DNA of 64,000 nucleotides from Candidatus Brevefilum sp. (lineage in GTDB: Bacteria > Chloroflexota > Anaerolineae > Anaerolineales > Anaerolineaceae). The stretch covers positions 1 through 64,000 of the forward strand of contig JARGGB010000004.1 in the NCBI GenBank assembly GCA_029210815.1, written 5' to 3'. Of the stretch, positions 26,394 through 33,626 are shown one piece after another (the first letter of the stretch is position 1; every line of letters starts with the position of its first letter). The notes under the pieces are model-generated. The model saw nothing but the letters and a program-made list of their open reading frames with translations. It was not told where the DNA came from and did not search any database. The translations under genes and the position numbers were made by a program.

Positions 26394-27008
26394 TTATATT
26401 TCATTTGAAGGCATCAGGCGTTTCATCTTGTCACGGATGACATTTTTCGGGCCGAAAAACCGGGTTCGGATCAAGGCTTCAGCTGTGATGCTCATCATCC
26501 CATATTGCGCCTTGAAATTATTATAACGGCAGGGGTATGCAACACCGGGGTTGAATAATAATTGCCCATCAACCCACCTGGCTGTTTGATGATGGGTATG
26601 ACCAAAAATGATGATGTCTGCATCGGGATAGTCCTGGTGCAATTGCCTGTAATAGCGGTCAAAGAGGTAGCCCTCACGGAAATAAGAAAATTTGTCGATG
26701 AGATAATGCAGCAAAGAACGATGCCCGTGGGCAAGGACGATTTTCAGGTTGTTGACAATCAGGGTTTGATGTTTTGGCAGATGCATCCCAAATAAAATAT
26801 CCCGGTTGCCCTGAACGATGGTAACAGGGGCGATTTCCTCCAGCTTTCGAACGACTTTCCAGCTTGATGCATCCCCTGCATGTAAGATGTGATCAACGGC
26901 GTTGATTTTGAACGCTTTCAAAATTTCAAGCTGCAGGTGCCTGGCGCGATCGGGAACATGTGTGTCTGCAAGCACCCCGAAGGTGATTGTTTTGGGTTCA
27001 CCGGGCAT
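26394..27008 (-). CDS. YfcE/MJ0936-type metallophosphoesterase
   Basis: GVLADTHVPDR, HAGDAS, VQGNRD, LAHGH, IIFGHTHHQT motifs. Confidence 0.92.
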   Translation of the reverse strand: MPGEPKTITFGVLADTHVPDRARHLQLEILKAFKINAVDHILHAGDASSWKVVRKLEEIAPVTIVQGNRDILFGMHLPKHQTLIVNNLKIVLAHGHRSLLHYLIDKFSYFREGYLFDRYYRQLHQDYPDADIIIFGHTHHQTARWVDGQLLFNPGVAYPCRYNNFKAQYGMMSITAEALIRTRFFGPKNVIRDKMKRLMPSNEI

Positions 27009-28224
27009 CGTTCATCTCTTTTTCTTTTGGTCTGAAGTAAACCCAGGTCAGAAATGTGCTGAGGGTGTAAAGCAAGCCGGTTGTGATGAACAGCGGCGAA
27101 AAGCCCAGGCGTGTTTGGACAAAGCCCGAAATAAAAATACCAATCGCTTGGCCCGTTTGCCAGCCCATACCCCGGACGCTGGCGATGGTCGCTTGTTCTT
27201 CCGGTTCACTGACTAACATGGCAAAGTTTTCGATCAAAGGAGATGACATCTGCATGAGAACATTTCGCAGCAAAAGACTCACAGCAGCAAGCCATAGAAA
27301 AGGTGAAAAGCCTAACGTAAACAGGAAGAATATGCTCGTCGCTTGTGTCGCAACTGTGGGAATGATACGGCTGTGGGTGATTTTAACCAGCCAGGGGGTG
27401 GACACTGAACCCAGAAAGACCATCAACGATGCAAGGCTGAATATGACACCGAGGAGGTTGTCGCTGATATCAAATTTTCCCCGCAAAAAGACATTGAGAT
27501 AGGGGATCAGGATTGCCGCGCCAAAGCCTGTGATCAGATTGATCAATGCAAACTGCCTGACTACCGGTCGATTGGCTAAGTTCTTGAGAAGCTTTCTTGG
27601 AAAAATCGGTATTCGTGCATTGGCTCTTTTTTCTTTGTGCTCTTTAATCAAAATGGTTGGTATTAAGGCGCTGCTGGCGAAGATGATGCCTGCGGTAATC
27701 ACCCAGCGATAGGACGCCGCACCGCCCTGGGAATACCCAAGCCAGGTTTCTAAGAGCCCGGGTATTTGTCCAGCCACCAGATTACCGATCATGTTTGCCA
27801 GTGTCAATAATCCAAAACTGAGGCTGAAGATCATGGCTTGATTTTCAGTTTTGCTGGCTGCCATAATAAATGGCGGGCGTGAAACTATAAAGAGCATAAT
27901 GCCTGCACCCTGAACCAATCCGAAAAGGAAGATGAAAACTGGATTGACCAGGTGGATCTGCATGAACATCCCAATAAACCCAATACTCAGCCCAATCAAC
28001 ATGCTGTTTCTTCGACCGATTCGGTCAGAGAGCAAACCGAGGGGTAAGCCAAAGACTAAGGCTGATAATGGTGTGGCTGATCGGATCAAACCGAGCATAT
28101 CATTATTGAAGCCAAGGGAAAGGATGTATAGATTAAAGAACAAGTCCCAAACGCTGAATGAAAAGCCATAAAGCAGGGTTGCAAGTAAGAAAAGTTTGGT
28201 GTCTCGATTAAATTGAAGGCGCAT
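26998..28224 (-). CDS. MFS transporter (pair B)
   Basis: 12 TM; GLPLGLLSDRIGRRNSMLIG motif A. Confidence 0.9.
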   Translation of the reverse strand: MRLQFNRDTKLFLLATLLYGFSFSVWDLFFNLYILSLGFNNDMLGLIRSATPLSALVFGLPLGLLSDRIGRRNSMLIGLSIGFIGMFMQIHLVNPVFIFLFGLVQGAGIMLFIVSRPPFIMAASKTENQAMIFSLSFGLLTLANMIGNLVAGQIPGLLETWLGYSQGGAASYRWVITAGIIFASSALIPTILIKEHKEKRANARIPIFPRKLLKNLANRPVVRQFALINLITGFGAAILIPYLNVFLRGKFDISDNLLGVIFSLASLMVFLGSVSTPWLVKITHSRIIPTVATQATSIFFLFTLGFSPFLWLAAVSLLLRNVLMQMSSPLIENFAMLVSEPEEQATIASVRGMGWQTGQAIGIFISGFVQTRLGFSPLFITTGLLYTLSTFLTWVYFRPKEKEMNDAR

Positions 28225-28356
28225 GAGGTCAAAAAATCCTGAGTAAAATTGCGGGTTGATTTTACCATGAGAGGCTATTAATTAGGACGAATTCAAGAAA
28301 AAGAACCCAAAATCTTATGACCCAGGAGTCAATAATCCATAATCCTTTCTTAAATT

Positions 28357-28402
28357 AAAAACACTTTTCGTTGCCCTCTTGTCGAAGGTGAAAAGTGTTT
28401 TT
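28357..28402. terminator. Bidirectional intrinsic terminator between GNAT (pair B) and MFS (pair B)
   Basis: AAAAACACTTTTC ... GAAAAGTGTTTTT, 13-bp perfect inverted repeat. Confidence 0.85.
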
Positions 28403-28429
28403 AAATATGGGTGGGTTTGTGTTTACAGA

Positions 28430-29443
28430 TCAAGAATTGGTAAATTCTTTTCTGAAAGTCATCATGGTCTTATCCTTGTGATAGCCCAAACTTGTGTAAA
28501 GCTTCAGAGCCCCTGTCGGGTTGTTCGTGTCCACACCCAGTGCTACTTCCTTCATACCCAGGGCTTTGTGCGTATGCATACTGCGAATGATGAGCGCCCT
28601 GGCAATCCCTTTACGGCGCCAGTCACGATGTGTGGTAATTTCTTCTGTCCAGCCGCGTTTTTTATTGTATTTTCTGTTGTAATCACGATCGATAAAATTT
28701 AAAACACTGCCGACAACTTCATCACCATGCCATGCAACCTGCCAGAGATAGGGTTGAAAATATTTTGATTCTTTGTAGCCTTTAAAGCTCTCTTCACCAG
28801 AGTCTGTGAAACCCCAGTGGTCGCGAAAAGCTTCGATGGATGCATCCCAAATCTTCCGAACATCTTCTGATTTTACAGGGCGTGTTTCGACACCTTCAGG
28901 CAGTTCTGATGATGGGATATCCTGCAGGGATCGTGACATTTCAATGAAGTATCGTACTGGTTGATAGTTTTTCCTTTCGATGATTTGATTAAACCAGGGT
29001 TTCAATTCATTGCTGTAGGTCTGGAAAAAATGCTTGTGTCCAGACGGATGCGCTTTAGATATTTCACGTAAGCGATTTTCACACCAATCAATCATGAATT
29101 CTTCGATGCCCAGGTTTCGCCACTCAGGTCGGATATGCACAAAATGCGAGTAGATATAGTCTTCAGAGGCTTCCTCTAAACTCCAATCGACACGAGAATA
29201 GGCGACAAGCGTTCCGTTCACCTCTGCAAAGCACATATCATTTTGAGGATTGGAATTTTTCAAGTGCTTGTAATCGTTTTTAATGTCGAACACTGTCATT
29301 GACTCTTCGTCATGATCAGCGGAAGCAGCCGCCTCAATGACATCCAGCATTAAGGGGAAATCGGATTCACCCTGAAAACCCCGAAATTCAAGACCATCGA
29401 TCTCTGGTATTCTTTCTAATAAATTATTGATTCTTACTTTCAT
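28430..29443 (-). CDS. Two-domain GNAT acetyltransferase (MshD-like architecture; pair B)
   Basis: C-terminal EEITTHRDWRRKGIARALIIRSMHTHKALGMKEVALGVDTNNPTGALKLYTSLGY acetyl-CoA motif; shares FRDHWGF with pair A paralog. Confidence 0.88.
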   Translation of the reverse strand: MKVRINNLLERIPEIDGLEFRGFQGESDFPLMLDVIEAAASADHDEESMTVFDIKNDYKHLKNSNPQNDMCFAEVNGTLVAYSRVDWSLEEASEDYIYSHFVHIRPEWRNLGIEEFMIDWCENRLREISKAHPSGHKHFFQTYSNELKPWFNQIIERKNYQPVRYFIEMSRSLQDIPSSELPEGVETRPVKSEDVRKIWDASIEAFRDHWGFTDSGEESFKGYKESKYFQPYLWQVAWHGDEVVGSVLNFIDRDYNRKYNKKRGWTEEITTHRDWRRKGIARALIIRSMHTHKALGMKEVALGVDTNNPTGALKLYTSLGYHKDKTMMTFRKEFTNS

Positions 29444-30957: not shown

Positions 30958-31974
30958 CTAAGACGATGAAATTTCTTTCGTCATCAAATCCTTGCCAGGT
31001 CGCAGTTCGAGCTCGTAGGTATCATATTTTTGTGTGACGTGCATTCCGGCTTTTTCGTAAAGCCTGGTGGCATTGGTCAGGCTGGTGGCATCCACACCCA
31101 GACCAGCCCGCTTCTTGCCGCGCTGATAAAATTCGTTGAAGGCGGTCAGCAGAAGCGCCATGCCCAGTCCTCTTTTACGCCAGGGCTTCCGAACACATAA
31201 TTGGCTGACCCATGCCATATCGGGGTCTTCGGTCATTTTGCCTGAGTTTCGGCAAATCCCTGCAATTTGATCCCCGTCCTTGGCTAAAAACCAGAGTGTG
31301 GGGTCAAAATCCTTATTGTTCTGAATGTAGTGCTCCCACTGCACCATAAGATCTTCAATGGTTCGTTCAACAAAACCCCAGTGATCGCGAAAACCATCTT
31401 CCATTGCAAGGATGGCGTCTTTGAGTTCATTTTCAAGGTCAATGCTTACAATCTGCAGACCTTCAGGGATGACTGGCTGCTGCGGCGGATGGTCAAATTC
31501 AATCATCATCCGGTAATAATTTCGGACGAGGTGGTACCCATATTGGCGCAAGGCAGCATTTCGCAGAAAATCTTTGCTGGGAGTGCCATGATTGATGACT
31601 ACCCTGGTGGCTTTTGGTGCCAGAGTCACCCGCTTACGGGCACAATCCTCAGCCCACGCCAGCATATCATTGTAGAGGCTGTCATCCCAATGCTCCGGGT
31701 GCAGGATACCCCAAACATACTTGGTGACATGCGGTTCCGAGAGATCATAGACGTCAATATAGCCAATAATGTTCCCCTGGCTGTCTTCAACAACCCTTGC
31801 GATCTCTTCCAGGTCAACACCAGGCGCTGTCCAATCGTTTATCATTTCATCCAGATTGGAATCCTTCCAGCCGTAGATATGCTGAGAATAAGCATTGAAA
31901 AGATCGACAACCGCCTGACCATCATCCAGACTAAAGGGGCGGATTTTTGTTTTTGTATTTGTTGTGTAAAGCAT
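30958..31974 (-). CDS. Two-domain GNAT acetyltransferase (MshD-like architecture; pair A)
   Basis: WVSQLCVRKPWRKRGLGMALLLTAFNEFYQRGKKRAGLGVDATSLTNATRLYEKAGM; strong RBS AAAAGGAGAAGAAAAATG. Confidence 0.9.
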   Translation of the reverse strand: MLYTTNTKTKIRPFSLDDGQAVVDLFNAYSQHIYGWKDSNLDEMINDWTAPGVDLEEIARVVEDSQGNIIGYIDVYDLSEPHVTKYVWGILHPEHWDDSLYNDMLAWAEDCARKRVTLAPKATRVVINHGTPSKDFLRNAALRQYGYHLVRNYYRMMIEFDHPPQQPVIPEGLQIVSIDLENELKDAILAMEDGFRDHWGFVERTIEDLMVQWEHYIQNNKDFDPTLWFLAKDGDQIAGICRNSGKMTEDPDMAWVSQLCVRKPWRKRGLGMALLLTAFNEFYQRGKKRAGLGVDATSLTNATRLYEKAGMHVTQKYDTYELELRPGKDLMTKEISSS

Positions 31975-32043
31975 TTTTTCTTCTCCTTTTTAAATTTCAC
32001 TTCTTATTTCATAATCATCCCGTGATCGAATTAATCAAAAAAA

Positions 32044-32067
32044 CCACGGGTTTTGGCGATCCCGTGG
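32044..32067 (-). terminator. Leader terminator T2
   Basis: Minus-strand CCACGGG-ATCGCCAAAA-CCCGTGG-TTTTTTT upstream of the pair A GNAT gene. Confidence 0.85.
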
Positions 32068-32103
32068 ATTTCAGGCGATATATCGTATTCTGAAAATAAA
32101 AAA

Positions 32104-32130
32104 GCCACGGGATTGGAGTTTGCCCATGGC
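32104..32130 (-). terminator. Leader terminator T1
   Basis: Minus-strand GCCATGGG-CAAACTCCAAT-CCCGTGGC-TTTTTTATTTT. Confidence 0.85.
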
Positions 32131-32176
32131 CGTTGTGGTAAATTTAGGTTAAGCTAAATTAATTCAGGCAAACTCC
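32115..32176 (-). promoter_or_regulatory. Antiterminator pairing overlapping T1 and the 3' end of the leader ORF
   Basis: GGAGTTTGCC (32176-32167 on minus) is the perfect 10-nt complement of GGCAAACTCC (32124-32115), which includes the 3' end of the T1 5' arm and its loop. Confidence 0.75.
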
Positions 32177-32252
32177 GCGCAGGTAAATTAACGCCGATAA
32201 GATCGGTGGATTTGCTGCGTAGCATTGTGTATGTGTAAAATGCATTGCTCAT
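32154..32252 (-). CDS. Putative 32-aa regulatory leader peptide (MSNAFYTYTMLRSKSTDLIGVNLPARSLPELI)
   Basis: ATG with upstream AAGAAAGGCAG Shine-Dalgarno-like sequence; ORF ends between promoter and terminators; its codons 26-29 contain the antiterminator 5' arm. Below the ORF-track size cutoff. Confidence 0.65.
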   Translation of the reverse strand: MSNAFYTYTMLRSKSTDLIGVNLPARSLPELI

Positions 32253-32290
32253 GCGCGTACTGCCTTTCTTGTAAATTTCCAAATTTAGTT

Positions 32291-32306
32291 CGCCTGAATT
32301 CAGGCG
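32291..32306. repeat. 16-bp perfect palindrome in the 5' leader
   Basis: CGCCTGAATTCAGGCG, just downstream of the inferred transcription start; possible operator or 5' stabilising hairpin. Confidence 0.6.
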
Positions 32307-32322
32307 TTTTTTGATCGTTACG

Positions 32323-32352
32323 AGTTTATCATAAAAAGTGAGCTTTTGTCAA
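32323..32352 (-). promoter_or_regulatory. Sigma70-type promoter for the leader-GNAT-MFS unit
   Basis: Minus strand TTGACA (32352-32347), 18-nt spacer, TAAACT (32328-32323). Confidence 0.6.
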
Positions 32353-32369: not shown

Positions 32370-33335
32370 TCAGGATTTCTTTATAAACCACTGGTAAACA
32401 ACAAATAACAAACCTGCCCCGCAGAGAGTGATCAGTCCGATGCCAAGGGTTTTGCCATCACTCAAGGTTCTGTGAAAGATTGATGGTGGTTCCGTGGGCG
32501 TTCGGGTAGGCGACGGTGTTCGGGTGGGTGCGGGTGTCATCGTTGGGCGCGGTTGTGTGGCTGTCGGCGTTGGGGGGATATCAGTGGGTGTGGGTGAAAC
32601 GGTCGGGGTGGGAGTTATTGCCGTTTGAATGATCAATTGCTGCCCTTCAAATAATTCTGTGGTTGATTGGGACAACCCGCTGTTGGTCAGGATCCTGTCA
32701 ATCGGTACCCCGTATGCTTCGGCAATGGTCCAAAGTGTTTCACCGTATTGAACGACATGTGTGATGATGCCATCCTCGTCCGGCGTGCTTGTGATGACCT
32801 GCTGAATATACCTGACGTTCTCATACTGTGATACCGAAGCATTTATTGATTCTGTGTCACCTTCATCTTTAACATTTTCAACATAAGTGCTTTCCCCGGG
32901 GAGGACGTTCAGGGTGTAGTAAACATAGCCATCCGAAAGGGTCACACCAGCGCCGACTGTGCCGGTTGCATATCCCATCATCGTTTCCCAGTGAACGGCA
33001 TCTGACCAAACCGCATTGACGCAGTGTGAGACGGACATATCGGTTCCCATGGCGACGTTTTCTTTGATCCCATAATCAAAAGCAGTGGATCCGTCCGCCC
33101 GGGTGTGGGTCCAGGTGCCCAGGGACGCCATGTAGTCGCTTTGCGTTTGGGCAAAACCCATCAGGAATGAATCGACCGTGTAAGGAGCCAATCCCTGACT
33201 CTGGCGCAGGCTGTTGACCGCGTTGATCAAATCTGAAGCGCTGCCTGCCTGGGCAGATACGGAGGAATGGACTGGGATTGAAGATAAAATCACAACCAGA
33301 AAGATTATGATGGATTGTTTCACAATTTGGCGCAT
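32370..33335 (-). CDS. Secreted CAP/SCP-domain protein with LysM domain and C-terminal TM
   Basis: LINAVNSLRQSQGLAPYTVDSFLMGFAQTQSDYMAS...TGTVGAGVTLSDGYVYYTLN (CAP), VVQYGETLWTIAEAYGVPIDRILTNSGLS (LysM), PTPT linker. Confidence 0.88.
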   Translation of the reverse strand: MRQIVKQSIIIFLVVILSSIPVHSSVSAQAGSASDLINAVNSLRQSQGLAPYTVDSFLMGFAQTQSDYMASLGTWTHTRADGSTAFDYGIKENVAMGTDMSVSHCVNAVWSDAVHWETMMGYATGTVGAGVTLSDGYVYYTLNVLPGESTYVENVKDEGDTESINASVSQYENVRYIQQVITSTPDEDGIITHVVQYGETLWTIAEAYGVPIDRILTNSGLSQSTTELFEGQQLIIQTAITPTPTVSPTPTDIPPTPTATQPRPTMTPAPTRTPSPTRTPTEPPSIFHRTLSDGKTLGIGLITLCGAGLLFVVYQWFIKKS

Positions 33336-33626
33336 AATGGCATTATTATAGCGTGTTTGGATAAAAATGGCATCCACACCAGGGTGATCGCAAGATCAAT
33401 ATATACAATTATCTTTTGGTTTGTTTCCATAAGGACGGGGGGGACAAGCCCCCACCCCTAAAACACTTCTATTAAATTGACTTAATTCGCAATTAGATAG
33501 AATTTCTTTGTTGGGGGGTGTCCAAAAAGGTAACCCATTAACGCAAATTTCTTTTTTTCTTTAGTCATCTGGAAAAAACCAAACTTGAACAGTTGATATT
33601 AAATATTTCTATCTAATATCGGAGTG

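Follow-up and report, generated by a model that had tools for sequence, protein, structure and literature searches.

A putative ribosome-mediated transcription attenuator upstream of drug-defence genes in the class Anaerolineae

The region upstream of a GNAT–MFS gene pair in Candidatus Brevefilum sp. is very probably a ribosome-mediated transcription attenuator, which de-represses drug-defence genes when translation is inhibited; ribosome stalling, the direction of the switch and the sensing of drugs are the parts of this reading that we infer. The region lies in a stretch of 64,000 nucleotides (hereafter the window, meaning the whole stretch of DNA analysed), for which a first-pass annotation had proposed a ribosome-stalling attenuator. 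That proposal is supported by conservation of the leader, by covariation of the antiterminator and by the resistance-type genes downstream, although neither the stalling nor a drug as its cause is more than an inference. The features by which an attenuator may be recognised are present: a leader ORF with a conserved Shine-Dalgarno (SD) sequence, start and stop (its translation is unmeasured), two terminators (T1 and T2) between that ORF and the gene, and a competing antiterminator arm placed where a ribosome would mask it, as indicated by covariation, the position of the stop codon and folding.

Anatomy and conservation of the leader region

The attenuator occupies the minus strand between the gene for a CAP/LysM protein (32370-33377) and the GNAT gene (Table 1). 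Every element claimed for it in the first-pass annotation – promoter, palindrome, leader ORF with SD sequence, T1, T2 and a perfect 10-nt antiterminator – was found on that strand at the position claimed. The leader ORF is preceded by the SD-like sequence AAGAAAGG. The antiterminator overlaps T1 only at the last two G of the 5' arm and in the loop, so that it would exclude T1 by topology and not by consuming the stem. This overlap, just two bases of the T1 stem, counts against the attenuator reading, as does the absence of expression or drug data. The MFS transporter bears distant similarity to drug-efflux MFS models, below their cut-offs. A second GNAT–MFS pair (window 26998-29443) follows the first on the same strand; a search of the window with the refined covariance model R2 (below) found no attenuator besides the reported site and its T2.

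Table 1. Features of the leader region and of the two genes proposed to be under its control (window coordinates)
Feature	Position	Strand	Basis
Sigma-70-type promoter, TTGACA-18-TAAACT (-35 TTGACA 32352-32347; -10 TAAACT 32328-32323; 18-nt spacer)	32323..32352	-	Sequence; -35, 18-nt spacer and TAnACT retained in genus relatives
Perfect 16-nt palindrome CGCCTGAATTCAGGCG, 5' leader	32291..32306	-	Sequence
Leader RBS and spacer AAGAAAGGCAGTACGCGC	32253..32273	-	Sequence
Leader ORF, 32 codons, MSNAFYTYTMLRSKSTDLIGVNLPARSLPELI (ATG 32252, TAG 32156-32154)	32154..32252	-	With SD; conserved in genus and across 13 families
Leader codons 12-14, Arg-Ser-Lys (R/K-X-R/K motif), suggested site of drug-dependent stalling	32211..32219	-	
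Antiterminator arm a, GGAGTTTGCC, within codons 26-29 (R-S-L-P)	32167..32176	-	Covaries with T1 loop, 33 genera
Antiterminator arm a', GGCAAACTCC, in T1 5' arm/loop	32115..32124	-	Perfect 10-nt complement of arm a; covariation
Intrinsic terminator T1, GCCATGGG/CCCGTGGC + T6	32098..32130	-	Sequence; conserved class-wide
Intrinsic terminator T2, CCACGGG/CCCGTGG + T7, stem sequence as in T1	32037..32067	-	Sequence; weak model match
Gene 1 (proposed to be regulated): GNAT-family acetyltransferase, 338 aa (ATG 31974)	30958..31974	-	Pfam PF00583; closest solved structure 3tt2
Gene 2 (proposed to be regulated): MFS transporter, 430 aa	29634..30926	-	Pfam PF07690

The arrangement is far beyond chance, because eleven other genomes of the genus have the same layout in front of their orthologous GNAT genes. 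In these regions the promoter spacing is kept, as are the leader ORF, the arm and the T1 loop; T2 is kept with changes. Most of the genus also has the 5' palindrome. In ten aligned leaders codon 12 always specifies Arg, using three codons (CGC, CGT and CGG), codon 20 always specifies Gly, also with three (GGC, GGA and GGT), and nine of the ten have Lys or Arg at codon 14 (AAA, CGC, CGT). Pairwise differences number 358, 455 and 501 at codon positions 1, 2 and 3, and are thus most frequent at the third. Invariant residues whose codons have been swapped, together with the third-position excess, point to selection on specific residues of the leader; residues 12-14 make up the R/K-X-R/K motif. The first-pass annotation, which would have been refuted by a leader ORF without conservation, survives on this count, and its identification of RSK at codons 12-14 as an R/K-X-R/K motif is borne out in the window and in the genus. 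In three relatives (L004, L005 and L016) the interval from T2 to the GNAT gene contains additional small ORFs, one or two in number and with good SDs; they are about 40 and 64 codons long, begin MYNLIIT/MYSLIIT and MYHFTxIDEAS, and are absent from the window.

A class-wide family and its antiterminator

A covariance model (R1) of the segment from the arm to T1, built without coding sequence of the downstream gene, matched 74 of 397 genomes of the class Anaerolineae at E<=0.01. Inspection of the matched sites showed that the great majority of the stronger matches have a leader ORF with an SD, a T1 and often a T2. At most strong matches the leader has about 20-35 codons and ends in R-S-A/V/L-P/S-x-x-x-stop, mostly R-S-A-P-xxx-stop; the second terminator often has the stem of T1. 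Weak matches include plain terminators. An automatic filter that called for an in-frame leader and an SD was passed by 58 loci from 33 genera and 13 families.

The refined model (R2), applied to the phylum, has its strong matches inside the class, and several genomes carry three or four copies (e.g., G438, G402 and G047). The window site scores 71.1 bits (E=6e-17); as the window sequence was among those used to train R2, it is the class-wide matches, and not this score, that provide independent evidence. Covariance-model E-values are rough and many of the genomes are MAGs. Scanning GTDB genomes for the pattern brought up MAGs of Anaerolineales and Anaerolineaceae, Bellilinea, Ornatilinea and Anaerolinea among them. 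Pattern matches in Streptomyces and other non-Chloroflexota were discarded: most lack a leader ORF equipped with an SD, and they seem to have arisen by chance. Of the model matches outside the class at E<=1e-3, L257 and L258 are plain terminators and were also discarded. Two others, weak matches in other classes of the phylum, adjoin an ABC-F-like gene (L259) and an ABC exporter (L260); these are candidates only, possibly remote forms of this switch.

If the arm and T1 form an antiterminator, true partners should pair better than permuted ones. This proved to be the case (-14.8 versus -13.0 kcal/mol), with none of 2000 permutations as good. Relatedness is not wholly eliminated by shuffling or permutation, and tests were therefore run with one locus per genus; these gave -14.5 versus -13.0 kcal/mol and p<0.001 in 20 of 20 resamplings (33 genera, 13 families). 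Arm base 2, for which the partner was chosen without using that pair, is paired in 46 of 51 loci (GC 26, GU 8, UA 5, CG 3, AU 3, UG 1; five mismatches), and 11 loci have UA, CG or AU swaps. In genus g15 (L043, L049 and L056) the arm reads GGATTGC in place of GGAGTGC and T1 has the matching GCAATCC; in the leader, Ser is replaced by Ile. At six further loci (L005, L010, L063, L064, L267 and L274) the arm is present but read in a different ORF frame, which suggests selection on the RNA itself. Evidence against the attenuator reading is that pairing of arm and T1 is poor at L069, L086 and L104. The first-pass annotation had also made its reading depend on compensatory changes in the antiterminator; these are observed, the arm and its T1 partner covarying across 33 genera, S-to-I leader changes included. 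In 43 of 58 loci, counting from the start of the first codon of the arm, the leader stop comes 21 nt later, which means that a terminating ribosome would sit on the arm.

Proposed operation of the switch and alternative readings

We propose that in a healthy cell a ribosome would follow RNA polymerase through the leader, reach the stop and cover the arm. With the arm covered the T1 hairpin would form and transcription would end, T2 providing a back-up. An inhibitor would instead stall the ribosome early, probably at Arg-X-Lys/Arg around codon 12, leaving the arm free to pair with the T1 loop before the 3' arm of T1 is made; T1 would then be blocked, and polymerase would read into the GNAT and MFS genes. 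Once freed, the T1 3' arm may pair with the 5' arm of T2, whose stem has the same sequence. Where there is no ribosome, the arm could be held by an RBS spacer that resembles the T1 loop (in some lineages) or by the 5' palindrome (in the window).

Folding of the RNA as it would be before the T1 3' arm emerges gives mean probabilities for arm:T1 pairing of 0.51 in free RNA, 0.56 with a stalled ribosome, 0.80 with a stalled plus an initiating ribosome and 0.02 with a ribosome at the stop; free window RNA gives 0.68. These are equilibrium, not kinetic, values. Given that pairing is already substantial in free RNA, the state without translation may be ON rather than OFF, a point against the proposed operation.

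Other pairings compete for the arm. One of them, absent from the first-pass annotation, is a possible 14-bp helix between the 3' half of the window's palindrome (AATTCAGGCGAACT, 32300-32287) and the leader arm AGTTTGCCTGAATT. Its z-score is -5.9 in the window, -3.8 in L016 and -2.7 in L004, and the pairing is not found in the others; the palindrome was accordingly rejected as a conserved part of the switch and is considered lineage-specific. Several families have a spacer between SD and start (e.g., GGCGCACTTC, GGCGCGCTCC and GGCGCATTCC) that is similar to the T1 loop and forms pairs with the arm, cognates scoring -9.6 versus -8.7 for permuted pairs (p<=0.001 across genera); the signal is patchy. 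As this pairing is weak in many loci and not predicted in the window (0.01), we treat it as secondary. At rsgA loci the arm (GAACGCGCC), T1 loop (GGTGTGTTC) and spacer (GGCACGTTT) have all changed together. T2, for its part, tends to repeat the T1 stem of its own locus: downstream, the longest run exactly complementary to the T1 3' arm measures 6.4 for cognates, 5.3 for other families and 4.5 for shuffled sequence, and in L010 and L011 the T2 5' arm is still complementary to the T1 3' arm although the 3' arm of T2 has changed. The shared stem and this retained complementarity suggest that a single switch may control both terminators, an inference, as is the cross-pairing of T1 with T2.

The motif at which stalling is proposed is enriched. 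Upstream of the RSAP end, 27 of 73 leaders contain R/K-X-R/K, compared to 9.5+-2.6 expected from shuffled peptides, and every occurrence starts at codons 7-14; in the same 73 leaders the neighbouring spacings (i+1, i+3, i+4 and i+5) show no enrichment. With one leader per genus the count is 14.9 of 40 against 4.9, about threefold over-representation. Ribosomes bound by macrolides or ketolides stop at R/K-X-R/K, as in ErmDL (PMC8298421). For the window's own leader we infer, with only slightly better than even confidence, that macrolide-like drugs are one inducer; the identity of the drug is no more than inferred. Many leaders are without the motif, among them most of family f12, and such lineages may respond to other inhibitors. 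Leaders of genus g33 in this family (L050, L072, L078, L103 and L115), which lie upstream of GNAT genes, have no R/K-X-R/K and share an N-terminal MxMxKFYI-like pattern, possibly another stall signal.

The variability of the leaders admits a different reading, namely that the element is a general sensor of translation rate with no specific arrest motif: any slow or missing ribosome would free the arm, and the response would be to overall translation stress and not to a class of drug. The middles of the leaders vary greatly in length and sequence, many have no R/K-X-R/K, arm:T1 pairing is already favoured in the free RNA of many loci, and RsgA, of a ribosome-assembly GTPase family, is also found under the switch. 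What speaks against such a sensor is that R/K-X-R/K is threefold enriched with a single spacing and at a single distance from the start, and that R12 and K/R14 are conserved through codon changes; we regard it as unlikely, although it deserves to be taken seriously. It is also conceivable, if improbable, that the C-terminal R-S-A-P itself acts as a SecM/RAPP-like pause site, holding the ribosome over the arm and so enforcing termination, with regulation acting via the pause. R-S-A/V/L-P/S is kept in most lineages with Arg codons as diverse as CGG, CGT, CGC, CGA, AGG and AGA. Stalling at RAPP-like motifs (R/Q/H-A/G/D-P/G/S-P/G) occurs when their third residue occupies the P site (PMC10987492); a ribosome arrested in this way in the Anaerolineae leader would be centred on the arm. 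However, that consensus is not met by R-S-L-P in the window or by the R-S-A-P that prevails elsewhere, RSAP is not among the motifs reported (PMC10987492, PMC12992588), and Trp stands in place of Arg at four loci. The arm that lies in other frames at the six loci listed above, and the S-to-I change with its compensating T1 loop, led us to reject RSAP as a universal arrest peptide.

An arm conserved even outside its usual reading frame, and a 5' palindrome in most of the genus, might point to a terminator controlled by a protein or ligand (a riboswitch or RNA-binding protein), the ORF being incidental. We consider this very unlikely: SD, start codon, stop position and R/K-X-R/K are conserved, nothing resembling a conserved aptamer was seen in the interval from promoter to ORF, and the curated covariance models of Rfam gave no match at gathering score in the window and only sub-threshold, irrelevant matches in eight relatives. 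Less credible still is an attenuator of the trp type responding to amino-acid starvation, which has the same general layout of leader ORF, antiterminator and terminator; the leaders share no run of a single amino acid, and the genes downstream encode efflux and transferase proteins, not biosynthetic ones.

Downstream genes and relation to known systems

Among the first downstream proteins (n=56) are 26 with ABC_tran (15 of them fused exporters), at least 21 GNATs and two RsgA. The families observed – ABC exporters, DrrA-like ATPases, GNATs, an ABC-F protein of the ribosome-protection type, a TetA(P)-like pump and RsgA – are mutually unrelated. In most sampled loci the downstream genes are, by family (ABC, GNAT, ABC-F, MFS), of resistance type; resistance itself is unassayed. 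One ABC-F (L102) exceeds the NCBIfam ribosomal-protection cut-off (441 against 380), while the DrrA-like (L037) and TetA(P)-like (L084) proteins fall below theirs. In family f49 (L080, L082 and L086) a HAD-like hydrolase, an unexpected type of gene, lies directly behind the leader.

Three species of the window's genus (L276, L277 and L278) have a second RsgA behind the switch. Together with L268 and L097 these proteins form a clade apart from housekeeping RsgA (support 1.0), are about 45% identical to the housekeeping copy, and are candidates for an inducible ribosome factor. In the window's own genome the only RsgA match is of the housekeeping type. It is tempting to see in one homologous ribosome-sensing cassette, placed before at least five unrelated gene families, the mark of an antibiotic-stress regulon of Anaerolineae, which would also control the unrecognised RsgA-paralogue clade, maybe as inducible ribosome-rescue or protection factors; this we advance tentatively, at a little under even chances. 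If true, the switch could mark new ribosome-directed resistance genes. Most members of the class are uncultured environmental bacteria; the module is found repeatedly among them, and the genes that it marks (efflux pumps, acetyltransferases, an ABC-F protein and RsgA paralogues) probably form a regulon. As a conserved module it offers a search handle: any gene of unknown function that follows it can be tested as a candidate for resistance to ribosome-directed drugs.

Ribosome-mediated transcription attenuation is of a known kind; for the Anaerolineae element itself we found neither an Rfam family nor, in the open-licence literature, a descriptive paper. That literature yielded nothing on point concerning leader peptides of Anaerolineae or Chloroflexi, and no drug-inducible attenuation in Chloroflexota; the examples found come mainly from Firmicutes and Actinobacteria. 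As in ErmDL (PMC8298421), R/K-X-R/K occurs early in a short leader, but it begins at codon 6 there, as against codons 7-14 in Anaerolineae, the gene families and the RNA differ, and arrest in Anaerolineae is inferred. The SecM/RAPP-like arrest peptides, described mostly upstream of sec/yidC genes (PMC10987492, PMC12992588), are likewise encoded by small upstream ORFs and have R-x-x-P at the C-terminus, close to the stop; the middle residues S-A of the Anaerolineae leaders, however, lie outside the reported motifs and the frame is not always kept. In the macrolide-inducible mef/msr(D) system a drug-stalled ribosome on a short leader is proposed to favour read-through into efflux/ABC-F genes (PMC4335068, PMC10314930), as we propose here, although the leader and the phylum are different and the Anaerolineae ORF combines an internal R/K-X-R/K with a 3'-terminal arm. 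In Bacillus subtilis, bmrB-bmrCD, induced by drugs that target protein synthesis, likewise places a multidrug ABC transporter under the control of a leader peptide and terminator (PMC4191407), the form of ribosome-mediated attenuation proposed for Anaerolineae. The stem-loops of BmrB, however, lie within the leader ORF region, whereas T1 and T2 follow the ORF; the Anaerolineae leader is unrelated, and a single homologous cassette serves many gene families.
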